From contig JAFXAQ010000054.1 in the NCBI GenBank assembly GCA_017516925.1, positions 1 to 35,299 on the forward strand: a DNA stretch of 35,299 nucleotides, in the 5' to 3' direction. Shown here in pieces: positions 3,009 to 35,299 of this stretch. This stretch comes from Oscillospiraceae bacterium. Its GTDB lineage: Bacteria; Bacillota; Clostridia; Oscillospirales; Oscillospiraceae. The first letter of the stretch is position 1, and every line of letters begins with the position of its first letter. The position numbers and the translations under genes are program-made. The notes under the pieces are model-generated. The model saw only the letters and a list, made by a program, of their open reading frames with translations. It made no database searches and had not been told where the DNA came from.

Positions 3009-3876
3009 AGCCCATCAGGATTTTGGCAAGCTCAGAGTCCTTGTCCAGAATGATGGTTTTTTCATCTCCGGTGAGGCTTTGCTTCAGCGCATCCAGCGCC
3101 AGGGTAAACTCATAGAATTCCTTTTTCTCCGCAGAGTCGTAGGCCTTTGCCAGCATACGCATATACTCTGCCTCGCCCTCCGCCTCCAGCTTGGCAGCCT
3201 CCGCCTGGGCATTGGAAACCATAATGTTTACCTGCTTATCCACATCGTTGCGGATAATGGATGCCTCGTAATTTCCGTCTGCGGTATATTTTTCCGCCAT
3301 CTGGTTTCGCTCGGAAATCATACGGGAATACACCGCATTGAGGTTGGATTCCGGCAAATCAAACTGCTTGATTTTTACATCCTCCACACAAATTCCATAG
3401 GTAGCAGCCTGTTTGTCCACTGTGGTGGTAATGCCCTCATAAATCTCATTGCGCTCTGCGCCGTCATTCATATTGATAATGTCCGCCTGGGCCAGGGTGC
3501 CCATAGCAATCTTCATTGCTGTGTAGGTAATGGCATTGAGCCGTTCCTCTGCCTTTTGAGAAGTACCCAAGGTCCGGTAGAACTGCTGCGGGTCAGAAAT
3601 TTTCCACAGAATATAGCAGTCCACCGTCATAGTCTGCTTATCCGAGGTCAGCACCTCAGAAGGGGGGATATCATAAATCTGGGTGGCCTTGGAATAGTAC
3701 TTCACACTGTCCACAAAGGGGATTTTAAAGTGCATACCGGCGCTGTCCACGGTGTCCACAATCTCAGAGAACCGGAAAACGCAGGCATACTGGTTTTCCG
3801 CCACTGTGTAATAGCCGCTGCCGACGACGATTAAAACCGCCAGCACAATTACTGCGATAATAATTGCTTTTTTCAT
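3007..3876 (-). CDS. hflC: HflC-type SPFH membrane protein
   Basis: The protein has 289 residues with an N-terminal membrane anchor (about residues 4-24) followed by an SPFH/prohibitin domain and a charged, alanine/glutamate-rich coiled coil near residues 205-250. In characterised bacteria HflC pairs with HflK to form a membrane cage around the FtsH protease and modulates its activity. Its start ATG overlaps the hflK stop by 4 bp (ATGA), so the two subunits are probably co-translated. Assignment as HflC rather than HflK rests on gene order and on the shorter N-terminus. Confidence 0.85.
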   Translation of the reverse strand: MKKAIIIAVIVLAVLIVVGSGYYTVAENQYACVFRFSEIVDTVDSAGMHFKIPFVDSVKYYSKATQIYDIPPSEVLTSDKQTMTVDCYILWKISDPQQFYRTLGTSQKAEERLNAITYTAMKIAMGTLAQADIINMNDGAERNEIYEGITTTVDKQAATYGICVEDVKIKQFDLPESNLNAVYSRMISERNQMAEKYTADGNYEASIIRNDVDKQVNIMVSNAQAEAAKLEAEGEAEYMRMLAKAYDSAEKKEFYEFTLALDALKQSLTGDEKTIILDKDSELAKILMG

Positions 3877-12349: not shown

Positions 12350-12536
12350 CTTCTTACACCCTACCCTTGCATATCCTCTGCCCATTTTAATGGGTTTCCG
12401 TCAATATATTTCCAAATTTCCAAAAAGTCTTCACGTCCTCTTACAATATGATCGTAAAAGCCTTTTTGCCAAACAGAAAAACCTGCCTGCTTTGTAACAA
12501 TTCCCTTCATTTGGTTCACAACCGTTTGAATCGTAA

Positions 12537-12556
12537 GGGCGGTCATTGGCCGCCCG
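12537..12556 (+). repeat. REP-like palindrome inside the RAYT gene, copy 1
   Basis: GGGCGGTCATTGGCCGCCCG is the exact reverse complement of 12703-12722. It is itself an imperfect hairpin (GGGCGG / CCGCCC) and is preceded by GTAA. Confidence 0.7.
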
Positions 12557-12702
12557 TCCTCATCTGTTAAGATTTCAAACAGTATGTGAATATGATTTGG
12601 CATCACCACAAAATTTTCCACACAAATCGCAGAATAATGTGCAGAAATATCCGTTATGGTTTTTTCTACAATCTTGCCCAATTCTGATAATTGCACATCT
12701 TC

Positions 12703-12722
12703 CGGGCGGCCAATGACCGCCC
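12703..12722 (-). repeat. REP-like palindrome inside the RAYT gene, copy 2 (inverted)
   Basis: On the minus strand this reads the same 20 bases as copy 1, preceded by GTAGG. The two copies are in opposite orientation 146 bp apart, an arrangement like paired REP elements (BIMEs). They encode in-frame residues GAVIGRPED and DGRPMTAL. Confidence 0.7.
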
Positions 12723-12854
12723 CTACTTGATCCCAAAATAAATTTTGTCTATTTTTTGTGCATACTGTAATAAAATATGCATTTGGACTACTGTAATCAA
12801 AATCACGCAGGCGAATTTGTTTTCTTTTTGAAAATCGTTCATTGTTTTAAGAAT

Positions 12855-24690: not shown

Positions 24691-24840
24691 AGGGGGTGTC
24701 TCAAAATGTATGAGACACCCCCAAAAATAAATATTTATTTGTAGGGAACGGCCTATGTGCCGTTCCAAAAGTGTTTATTCTGTAATTTTTTCGGAATGAC
24801 ACATAGGTCATTCCCTACATATGCATTTTGAGACAGCACC
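24691..24840. mobile_element. MITE-like palindromic element, complete copy
   Basis: About 150 bp with imperfect terminal inverted repeats that share TGTCTCAAAATG. The left end also folds back into a GGGGGTGTCTC / GAGACACCCCC hairpin. Two internal arms (GTAGGGAACGGCCTATGTGC and the complement of the segment at 24794-24818) are inverted copies of each other. No ORF is present. It begins 5 bp after the stop codon of the DUF6440 gene and fills most of the 250-bp gap to the next gene. A half copy lies at 28781-28862. Confidence 0.75.
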
Positions 24841-24877
24841 TTTTCGTAAACAATCCGTAAACAAACGAAAAAAGCGG

Positions 24878-24905
24878 TTGAAATCTTTGCATTTTCCCAT
24901 ATAAT
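24878..24905 (+). promoter_or_regulatory. Promoter of the zinc-ribbon membrane protein gene
   Basis: TTGAAA (24878-24883), a 16-bp spacer and TATAAT (24900-24905), 30 bp before the ATG at 24936. Confidence 0.6.
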
Positions 24906-24935: not shown

Positions 24936-25340
24936 ATGGGAAATTGGTTTCGTAATTTTACTGCCCGGCTGGGCGCAGGCTTCCGCCATTTTATGCAGGG
25001 CCGGTACGGCACAGACAAGTTAAATACCGCAATTTTGCTTGCCGGTGTGGTCGCCTGCCTGCTGTCTATGTTTTTACGGCTGCCTCTGCTGAACTGGCTG
25101 CTGACCCTTTTTTCCTATGTGTGTATGGGCTGGGCAATTTTCCGGATGCTCTCCCGGAACACCTACAAGCGGTACGAGGAAAACCGGAAATATCTGCGCC
25201 TTTTGGACCAGCTGAAGGACAAGGAGCATAAATATTATGCCTGTCCCCGGTGCCGCCAGACAGTGCGTGTCCCTCGGGGAAAGGGGAAAATTTCCATCAC
25301 CTGTCCCAAGTGCAAAGAAAAGTTTATAAAGAAAACATAA
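24936..25340 (+). CDS. Membrane protein with C-terminal zinc ribbon
   Basis: The protein has 134 residues. A basic N-terminus is followed by two membrane helices (about 31-48 and 52-70) and a charged linker. The C-terminal zinc ribbon has two CxxC knuckles (CPRC and CPKC) separated by RQTVRVPRGKGKISIT, which resembles MJ0042-type or DZR-type ribbons. It looks like a cytoplasmic sensor or adaptor domain on a membrane hairpin. Function unknown. It stands alone with its own promoter. Confidence 0.75.
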   Translation: MGNWFRNFTARLGAGFRHFMQGRYGTDKLNTAILLAGVVACLLSMFLRLPLLNWLLTLFSYVCMGWAIFRMLSRNTYKRYEENRKYLRLLDQLKDKEHKYYACPRCRQTVRVPRGKGKISITCPKCKEKFIKKT

Positions 25341-25360
25341 CAGGCATTTTAGCGCCTGTT
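25340..25360 (+). repeat. Terminator-like hairpin, left copy, without T-run
   Basis: ACAGGCATTTTAGCGCCTGTT differs by one base from the hairpin at 25625-25646. It is not followed by T residues. The two copies bracket the structured element and the palindrome at 25512-25573. Confidence 0.65.
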
Positions 25361-25363
25361 CGG

Positions 25364-25508
25364 TCTATCTAAAAAGCATTTTTTGATAGACTGACAGAGG
25401 TCAAAGGAGCACCAAAGACAAGCAACTCGAACCTGTAGACGTACAGATGGTACGGTAAGGTTCGCGTTGTGCAGTAAGGCAAAACACCTTGCGTAGCAAG
25501 TGCTTTTT
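25364..25508 (+). ncRNA. Candidate structured RNA element, copy A
   Basis: The element has a hairpin TCTATC/GATAGA (25364-25369 with 25385-25390), an almost invariant core (25391-25425, 34 of 35 bases equal to copy B), and a long stem 25423-25433 with 25459-25469 enclosing the invariant CGTACAGATGGTACG. A terminal hairpin CTTGC/GCAAG is followed by CTTTTT (25504-25508). Against copy B (35051-35196) three base pairs change in a compensatory way (A-T to G-C twice, C-G to A-T once). I do not recognise the family. The strand is assigned from the T-run. No clear promoter is seen. Confidence 0.6.
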
Positions 25509-25511
25509 CAC

Positions 25512-25573
25512 AATCCCTCAGTCAAAAATCAAAGATTTTTGCCAGCTCCCTTTACACAAGGGAGCCTTTTTAA
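25512..25573. repeat. Palindromic dispersed-repeat candidate (CCCTCAGTC type)
   Basis: Two adjacent hairpins are visible. One has AAAAATC / GATTTTT arms within CCCTCAGTC...GCCAG. The other is GCTCCCTTT / AAGGGAGC with an ACAC loop followed by a T-run. Similar paired palindromes are, from general knowledge, frequent between genes of related gut Clostridia. Only one copy is in this window. Confidence 0.45.
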
Positions 25574-25624
25574 AATCCCATATAAATCTGTGTTTTGATG
25601 GTTTGGGGGTTCTTTGACGCTCTG

Positions 25625-25651
25625 AACAGGCGTTTTAGCGCCTGTTTTTTC
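25625..25651 (+). terminator. Rho-independent terminator before glgB
   Basis: AACAGGCG, loop TTTTAG, CGCCTGTT followed by TTTT. It lies 285 bp after the stop of the zinc-ribbon gene and may be its original terminator, displaced by the insertion of the intervening elements. Confidence 0.75.
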
Positions 25652-28774: not shown

Positions 28775-28780
28775 AAAAGC

Positions 28781-28862
28781 GGGTGTCTCAAAATGTATGA
28801 GACACCCCCAAAAATGAATATTGATTTGTAGGGAACGGCTTATGTGCCGTTCCCAAAAGCCT
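28781..28862. mobile_element. MITE-like element, left half only
   Basis: The sequence matches 24695-24775 with few differences, including the GGGTGTCTC/GAGACACCC hairpin and the GTAGGGAACGG arm. The right half is missing. It begins 6 bp after the amidase stop codon. On the minus strand the hairpin is followed by a T-run (GCTTTTTT), so it can terminate the carbonic anhydrase gene, whose last codons and stop lie in it. Confidence 0.75.
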
Positions 28863-34998: not shown

Positions 34999-35050
34999 TT
35001 TTTCGCCTCCTATTACAAACAGGTGTTTTCAACGAGTGAAAACACCTCAG

Positions 35051-35196
35051 TCTGTCAAAAAGTACTTTTTGACAGACTGACAGAGGTCAAAGAAGCACCA
35101 AAGACAAGCAAACCGGACCTGTCGGCGTACAGATGGTACGTTAGGGTCCGGTTTGTGGAGTAAGCCAAAACAGCTTGCGACAGCAAGATATTTTAG
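35051..35196 (+). ncRNA. Candidate structured RNA element, copy B
   Basis: This is the second copy of the element at 25364-25508, with a preceding hairpin AGGTGTTTTCA/TGAAAACACCT (35031-35047). It has hairpin TCTGTC/GACAGA (35051-35056 with 35071-35076), the invariant core, and a fully paired 11-bp stem (35109-35119 with 35145-35155). CTTGC/GCAAG followed by ATATTTTA ends it. It lies divergent to bioY. It could be a structured RNA or DNA recognised as a hairpin. The assignment of strand rests on copy A. Confidence 0.6.
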
Positions 35197-35202
35197 GAAA
35201 CG

Positions 35203-35242
35203 GATTGCCACAACCAGTGTTGCGACACTGGTTTCGCAATGA
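35203..35242. repeat. Palindromic dispersed-repeat candidate (GGATTGCCA...CGCAATGAC type)
   Basis: GGATTGC...GCAATGA outer arms surround a CCAGTGT/ACACTGG hairpin. The form is like short palindromes common between genes of related Clostridia (general knowledge). Nothing else was recognised in the remaining 35243-35299. Confidence 0.4.
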
Positions 35243-35299
35243 CAACTTAATATCGGCAGATTGCTTTTTCAATATTGTTGTGTTTTGGCGATTTGGGGG

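Follow-up and report, generated by a model that had tools for sequence, protein, structure and literature searches.

A dispersed structured element of Oscillospiraceae lying between duplicated terminator-like hairpins, a probable MITE of the IS1182 type

The structured sequences found at two places in a 35,299-bp contig of an Oscillospiraceae bacterium (the whole stretch of DNA analyzed here, referred to below as the window) belong to a dispersed element of gut Clostridia that we interpret, with a probability of roughly 70%, as an IS1182-type MITE, which would be mobilized in trans, insert at terminator hairpins, and duplicate the whole hairpin. This explanation is preferred since the element has inverted-repeat ends, IS1182 insertion sequences of the same genus have similar ends, and these insertion sequences are flanked by the same hairpin duplications. 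Judging from the compared genomic copies, mobility and hairpin duplication are well supported, and the partnership with IS1182 is likely within the genus.

Organization of the element

The unit is approximately 264 bp long, with copy A occupying positions 25361–25624 of the window. A left palindrome and an inner left end come first, then the covarying hairpin with a conserved flank, a hairpin resembling a terminator, and the variable middle; the unit closes with a right end, in which the inner left end is repeated imperfectly and in inverted orientation. Copy B is laid out in the same way and is incomplete, the contig ending inside the unit. The parts of both copies and of their surroundings are as follows.

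25339–25360, no strand: target duplication of copy A, left copy, AACAGGCATTTTAGCGCCTGTT; a terminator-like hairpin directly 3' of the upstream + strand gene
25361–25393, + strand: left-end palindrome of copy A, CGGTCTATC...GATAGACTG
25395–25422, + strand: inner left end of copy A, CAGAGGTCAAAGGAGCACCAAAGACAAG; repeated imperfectly and inverted at the right end, with which it is predicted to form the outer stem of the whole-element fold
25423–25469, + strand: core hairpin of copy A, with a covarying basal stem, an internal loop, and the apical stem-loop CGTACAGATGGTACG
25470–25507, + strand: conserved 3' flank of copy A, GTAAGGCAAAACACC, and terminator-like hairpin, CTTGC..GCAAG with a T-run
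25508–25588, + strand: variable middle of copy A, including the dispersed repeat module CCCTCAGTC...GGGAGCC at 25515–25566
25589–25624, + strand: right end of copy A, TGTGTTTTGATGGTTTGGGGGTTCTTTGACGCTCTG
25625–25646, no strand: target duplication of copy A, right copy, AACAGGCGTTTTAGCGCCTGTT; a T-run is next
35021–35047, no strand: target duplication of copy B, left copy, AGGTGTTTTCAACGAGTGAAAACACCT
35048–35079, + strand: left-end palindrome of copy B
35081–35187, + strand: inner left end, core hairpin, and terminator-like hairpin of copy B
35188–35299, + strand: variable middle of copy B and the first part of its right end, with the repeat GATTGCCAC...CGCAATGACA at 35203–35244; truncated by the contig end

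An earlier, sequence-only reading of this DNA described a two-copy element whose copy A ended at 25508. Both points have to be revised, as copy A runs to 25624 and the MAG from which it comes (1.65 Mb in 67 contigs, 84% complete) gave 31 blastn matches to it, many of them partial or at contig ends. The terminal hairpin with a T-run noted in that reading (25488–25506) is internal to the longer unit. The base-pairing details were confirmed when the sequence was re-inspected: the long stem pairs as proposed in both copies (25423–25433 with 25459–25469 in A, 35109–35119 with 35145–35155 in B), the pairs A25430–T25462 and C25426–G25466 of copy A are replaced in copy B by G35116–C35148 and A35112–T35152, respectively, the mismatch T25427/C25465 of copy A is a C–G pair in copy B, and A25367–T25387 in the first hairpin is a G–C pair in copy B. 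The tip CGTACAGATGGTACG, described as invariant, occurs at exactly two sites in the window with up to two mismatches allowed (0.02 expected).

The dispersed repeat modules listed for the variable middle are not the same in copies A and B, and in element copies this region often contains other dispersed repeats. In one copy (L023/L030, contig C10 of genome G000, 39–448), the core tip is interrupted by an insertion with GGCTGAGAGAACTCGAACC at one border and the inverse of this sequence at the other. The window also contains an unrelated pair of repeats (24691–24880 and 28776–28855), a candidate MITE with other ends. Its palindromes are GGGGGTGTCTCAAAATGTATGAGACACCCCC and GGAACGGC..GCCGTTCC, and its ends are of the GGTGCTGTCTCAAAAT type.

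Duplication of the target hairpin and empty sites

Copies A and B are each flanked on both sides by direct repeats of a terminator-like hairpin. The repeats around copy A (25339–25360 and 25625–25646) are identical at 21 of 22 bases. For copy B, the identical 27 bases of its hairpin repeat are found after a right end on contig C56, which has at least 100 bases in common with the end of the window; the right end of copy B is taken to be on this contig, the adjacency being presumptive because the shared overlap lies within the repeat.

Among 119 unique full copies with both flanks, drawn from the genus and from SIG506, direct repeats were found for 86, compared with 9 of 357 swapped-flank controls. 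The duplicated hairpin is about 18–40 bp long. The right flank opens with a hairpin within 0–4 nt in 112 of the 119 copies; moving the start point by 25 nt or 40 nt lowered this number to 10 and 15, respectively. Among the 85 copies with both a repeat and a hairpin, 62 have a repeat whose end is within 0–1 nt of the 3' hairpin foot, and the foot itself lies 18–40 nt from the element boundary. The duplicated length therefore tends to track the structure of the target, not a fixed stagger. The correlation between repeat length and hairpin end in these 85 copies is only 0.63, because some alignments extend past the hairpin.

The same arrangement was observed in other families, where 67 copies with both flanks were available among 79 loci outside the first set: direct repeats were found for 44 of 67 copies vs. 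2 of 201 controls, and 60 of the 67 have a hairpin at the start of the right flank vs. 10 and 9 at the shifted positions. This count excludes two real copies with flanking hairpins (L427, L435) and one from the own genome of the window (L432), and it contains, as copies without repeats, two loci at which the right end was anchored early (L426, L437). A regulatory leader, one of the options of the sequence-only reading, is not supported, because most of the tested copies (86/119 and 44/67) are situated between two copies of a terminator-like hairpin. A scan of 284 sequences, many of which surround copies and some of which overlap, yielded 135 pairs of same-stem hairpins 60–7000 bp apart, 79 of which are spaced by 250–299 bp.

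At least four T within the 8 nt after the right hairpin were found in 51 of 74 cases and at least four A within the 8 nt before the left hairpin in 55 of 74, both being counts without a control; by their position and T-runs, the duplicated hairpins are probably working terminators. The two hairpins are identical in 42 of the 74 ungapped pairs, and 11 further pairs are gapped. Mismatches in the ungapped pairs affect 24 of 304 loop positions vs. 19 of 1692 stem positions, a contrast that is in part expected because the way hairpins were defined is biased toward intact right-hand stems. Two pairs contain a compensated stem change, and the two copies of a hairpin sometimes differ by several loop bases at once.

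Matching repeats are absent from 33 of the 119 and 23 of the 67 copies. Many of these copies have a different hairpin on each side, as recombination between copies would give, or have no left palindrome. The 33 exceptions include copies devoid of both the left palindrome and the left hairpin, and also tandem or composite units, e.g., the tandem pair in L221. A test of orientation (56 LR, 25 -R, 14 L-, 5 --, and 19 short) was too permissive to discriminate.

The upstream gene of copy A is present in 55 of 61 genus genomes. At four of the 30 loci examined, own locus included (L391, L398, L407, and L414), this gene is followed by a single hairpin and a gene whose start resembles that of the glgB-like gene, which in the window lies downstream of copy A and has alpha-amylase and CBM48 domains; there is no element at these empty sites, and the covariance model finds no core in them. 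One more locus (L392) was not counted as empty, having no clear synteny, and the remaining loci have other downstream genes or were unflagged. Together with the inverted-repeat ends and the whole-hairpin duplications, the empty sites bear out the suggestion of the sequence-only reading that this might be a mobile hairpin element.

Conserved core fold and its distribution

The structured core is strongly constrained. In the genus copies, the basal stem is 92% Watson-Crick, compared with 46% when the 3' letters are shuffled (the largest value in 500 shuffles was 53%), and in helix 1 of 40 genus sequences 72 cells are changed on both sides and one on one side only. In 48 sequences from across the class, 95.7% of cells pair (72.4% after shuffling), 180 cells are doubly changed (53.9 after shuffling), and the covariation score is 0.604 (0.167 after shuffling); none of 500 shuffles reached any of these values, and slid controls remained far below them, the covariation counts being inflated by related rows. 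The proposal that the structure is under selection with its single-stranded blocks kept, made from two copies, is thus upheld by covariation far above shuffled controls in a larger set. In line with that reading, which took the element for a candidate new family, the core matches no Rfam family: the window and 20 loci with further copies gave no match in Rfam 15 at E-values up to 1. A possible known RNA, Gut-1 at L439 627–707, was rejected, as its 33 bits are below the gathering score of 50 and it lies outside the element.

When 12 divergent elements were folded singly, the outer stem formed by the two ends and the core hairpin were predicted in all 12, and a second long-range helix between the 3' flank of the core and the right end in 10, the exceptions being L256 and the minimum-energy fold of copy A itself. 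In 55 dereplicated elements, this second helix has at least six pairs in 33. Its own complementarity (median 9.3) exceeds that of swapped partners (7.6 for all pairs, 7.15 across the genus border), and the same holds for the outer stem (12.2 vs. 8.6 and 7.95, respectively); the distributions overlap, with 27 (second helix) and 19 (outer stem) of 132 swapped pairs reaching the own median.

Of the non-Watson-Crick cells class-wide, 36 are G·T, 3 are A·C, and 32 are of other kinds, 12 of the 36 G·T being at one pair and hence not independent; in the 25-sequence set the respective numbers are 13, 1, and 13. Since a wobble on one strand is a mismatch on the other, this bias is indicative of a folded + strand, and it hints at a role as single-stranded RNA or DNA. 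The genus set has 11 G·T vs. 8 A·C. According to dinucleotide shuffles, composition accounts for the strand difference in folding energy in the genus set and one further group, and there is a modest strand preference (mean z from -1.5 to -2.9) in four small groups (10, 11, 3, and 2 members). Our best guess is that the core fold functions in the element's own single-stranded RNA or DNA form.

Matches to copy A by blastn were found in 6 of 40 genomes of relatives, own genome included, all within the genus, and in none of 15 genomes outside it. A degenerate right-end pattern (at most two mismatches) occurs in 17 of 101 genus genomes, again including the own one, and its reversed control in none. 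The exact right-end pattern was found in 117 stretches of a collection of named species, of which 116 come from Oscillospiraceae, Clostridiales, or Eubacteriales MAGs, Candidatus Faecousia species among them; the single Microbulbifer match is taken for chance.

Covariance models reach further. With a model built from 40 genus copies, matches were obtained in 12 of 197 genomes of the order, own genome included, representing 7 of 110 genera. The search of Clostridia proposed with the sequence-only reading, performed with a second model (25 sequences), found the core in 34 of 391 genomes of the class, own genome included, and in 26 of 223 genera at E ≤ 1e-4, these E-values being rough because of a short calibration. 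The matched genomes often contain at least 10 scored copies each. In all of the 27 class-level loci examined, the hairpin and the tip are plain, and the right end comes next in nearly all. The left palindrome is absent in several, e.g., L484, L498, L500, and L503.

Copies adjoin unrelated genes, in agreement with the statement in the sequence-only reading that the element is not tied to one gene. Six copies (L421, L433, L445, L484, L500, and L503) have neither the left palindrome nor the left hairpin and seemingly stand directly after the stop codon of a gene, most of them with a single terminator-like hairpin beyond the element; given this position, they could be part of the 3' UTR. A phage or plasmid origin was considered and rejected: phage records searched with copy A and plasmid records searched with its relative L487 gave no match, and specific patterns had one and two matches in viral contigs. 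A 15-mer scan of viral contigs returned 62 stretches, the pattern being too short to inform, and those loci are excluded from all counts.

The IS1182 partner and alternative explanations

The IS1182 insertion sequences of the genus have ends similar to those of the element. By eye and within the genus only, the left end of an insertion sequence, CAGTCTGTCAAAAAACTT (L365), is recognizable in left palindromes of the element, e.g., in L107 and L111, the left half of the palindrome in these other copies corresponding to the left end of the IS1182 elements, and the right end of the insertion sequence, GGGGTTCTTTGACAGACTG, is similar to that of the element, GGGGGTTCTTTGACACTCTG. Whole-hairpin repeats of up to 64 bp surround six of the nine insertion sequence copies with both ends visible (L364, L365, L370, and L373 by script, L363 and L375 by eye). 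The other three comprise two with different hairpins on each side (L374, L385) and a shorter, broken copy with none (L372).

Transposases of the PF13751 type were found in 3 of 14 carriers tested, and in genome G044 the element encoding such a transposase has a similar right end followed by a hairpin. Of 136 genus genomes, 22 match a 248-aa part of the G044-type transposase at E ≤ 1e-20. All four transposases tested score 382–401 bits against the NCBIfam IS1182 model (cut-off 270), and both of the two tested against Pfam contain DDE_Tnp_1_6, DUF772, and DDE_Tnp_1. The element and an IS1182 transposase occur together in some genus genomes (G044, G130, and G022), and in G130 an insertion sequence and the element lie side by side within one pair of repeats (L363).

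The IS1182 elements of the genus have no structured core; among 37 IS-related loci, the core is present in L363, where it adjoins an insertion sequence, and in L358. Core-less elements with hairpin duplications also exist, namely, L178 (core deleted), L404, and the unit at 3514–4159 in L319, none of which has a core according to the covariance model. The L319 unit and L291 (SIG506) are composite elements of another kind, with similar ends and placed between duplicated hairpins. An autonomous element with the core was sought, and none was seen among the matches listed. No IS1182 transposase was detected in the window's own genome, a MAG that is 84% complete and whose contigs often end in these repeats, and none scored above the cut-off in the 11 carriers from other families, three of which have sub-threshold fragments.

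Under the IS1182-type MITE model, a DDE transposase of the IS1182 family would act on the element in trans. The terminator hairpin of the target would be extruded as a cruciform, and the 3' ends of the element would be joined to the two 5' feet of the hairpin. Repair would then copy the entire hairpin, so that a copy of the terminator would stand on either side of the element and the upstream gene would retain its own. Counting against this model are the lack of IS1182 transposase matches in the own genome and above the cut-off in the carriers from other families, the presence of PF13751 in only 3 of 14 carriers, the element and insertion sequence copies without matching repeats, the limited correlation of repeat length with hairpin end, and the class-wide conserved interior, unusual for a simple deletion derivative.

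A broader reading is tentative, with the odds somewhat against it. Copies across the class could be strand-specific structured nucleic acids without a match in Rfam 15, parasitic on structure-seeking transposases, for which the + strand fold, as RNA or single-stranded DNA, would be needed for the spread into terminators, the hairpin duplication leaving the ends of host genes intact. Such a fold would consist of a closing helix made from the element's own ends, the covarying hairpin with its near-invariant tip, and the second long-range helix.

Rather improbable is a SINE-like RNA parasite, whose + strand transcript would fold with the terminal inverted repeats as a closing helix and be copied into terminators by a reverse transcriptase of the host or of a mobile element. 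Target-primed copying would fit target duplications of variable length, and the class-wide covarying fold with G·T far in excess of A·C (36 vs. 3, and 13 vs. 1 in the 25 sequences), the folds predicted for the 12 elements (outer stem and core hairpin in all, second helix in 10), and the lack of an autonomous core-bearing copy among the matches listed all suit an RNA. However, the ends are common to DDE insertion sequences making the same duplications, and core-less elements make them too. Moreover, G·T and A·C are about equally frequent in the genus set (11 vs. 8), where composition accounts for the difference in folding energy between the strands, and the second helix is predicted in only 33 of 55 dereplicated elements.

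A multicopy stand-alone RNA, regulatory or housekeeping, that merely happens to be near terminators would account for the strong covariation, the conserved single-stranded blocks, and the internal terminator-like hairpin; it is very improbable nonetheless, as copies are bounded by duplicated host hairpins and adjoin unrelated genes, empty sites exist, and the right-end pattern occurs in only 17 of 101 genus genomes. Equally hard to maintain is a REP- or BIME-like element mobilized by a TnpA-REP-like Y1 (HUH) transposase, despite the palindromic extragenic repeats, Y1 matches in six of seven carriers tested (carriers only), and a weak Y1 match in the window (12361–12780, - strand; 24.8 bits, cut-off 23) whose size is that of REP-associated tyrosine transposases: no Y1 match was found in carrier G001, which is 99% complete, and the whole-hairpin duplications speak against the HUH mechanism, since target duplications are not expected from HUH elements.

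Comparison with known systems and significance

The nearest known systems are IS1272 and TnSha1, IS1182-family elements of staphylococci, which, according to the available portions of two papers (PMC5678879, PMC4923244), target inverted repeats, often terminators, by structure and not by sequence. In this they resemble the proposed partner, which likewise has an IS1182-family transposase and hairpin or terminator targets set by structure. In these sources, however, insertion deletes or replaces the stem-loop without target duplication, IS1272 removing it or deleting it in part, whereas the element described here duplicates the whole hairpin (86/119, 44/67). A hairpin duplication is drawn as possible pathway b in the legend to Figure 13 of the 2017 paper (PMC5678879), as far as its accessible text goes.

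MITEs of Methanosarcina acetivorans have been assigned to an IS1182 partner, ISMac2 (PMC3852290), and are similar to our element in being short, non-autonomous, and IS1182-assigned; their direct repeats are apparently 4 and 0 bp (by the inferred order of the columns), and neither hairpin duplication nor a structured core is described in the part of that paper available. BOX, SPRITE, QMITE2, and similar bacterial MITEs with structured transcripts (PMC10969869) are also dispersed, intergenic, structured, and in some cases terminator-like, and the available sections of this source describe no whole-hairpin target duplication and no class-wide fold for them. According to the accessible part of a survey (PMC9208149), IS1182 is among the families over-represented between convergent genes.

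In the open literature, which was the scope of our search as distinct from subscription papers and ISfinder, we came across no mobile element described as duplicating an entire target hairpin. Long, variable repeats are reportedly listed for IS1182 in ISfinder.

Counting 86 and 44, the copies with direct repeats provide 130 natural insertions in which the duplication of an entire hairpin, its length seemingly set by the structure of the target, can be studied. In the portion of the 2017 paper available (PMC5678879), this outcome of transposition is drawn only as a possibility. By duplicating the terminator on which it lands, mobile DNA would be able to insert into a genome and do little damage. 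Finally, with a fold that is present in 34 of 391 genomes of the class and has no Rfam family, the question of whether a MITE can carry a functional RNA becomes directly testable.
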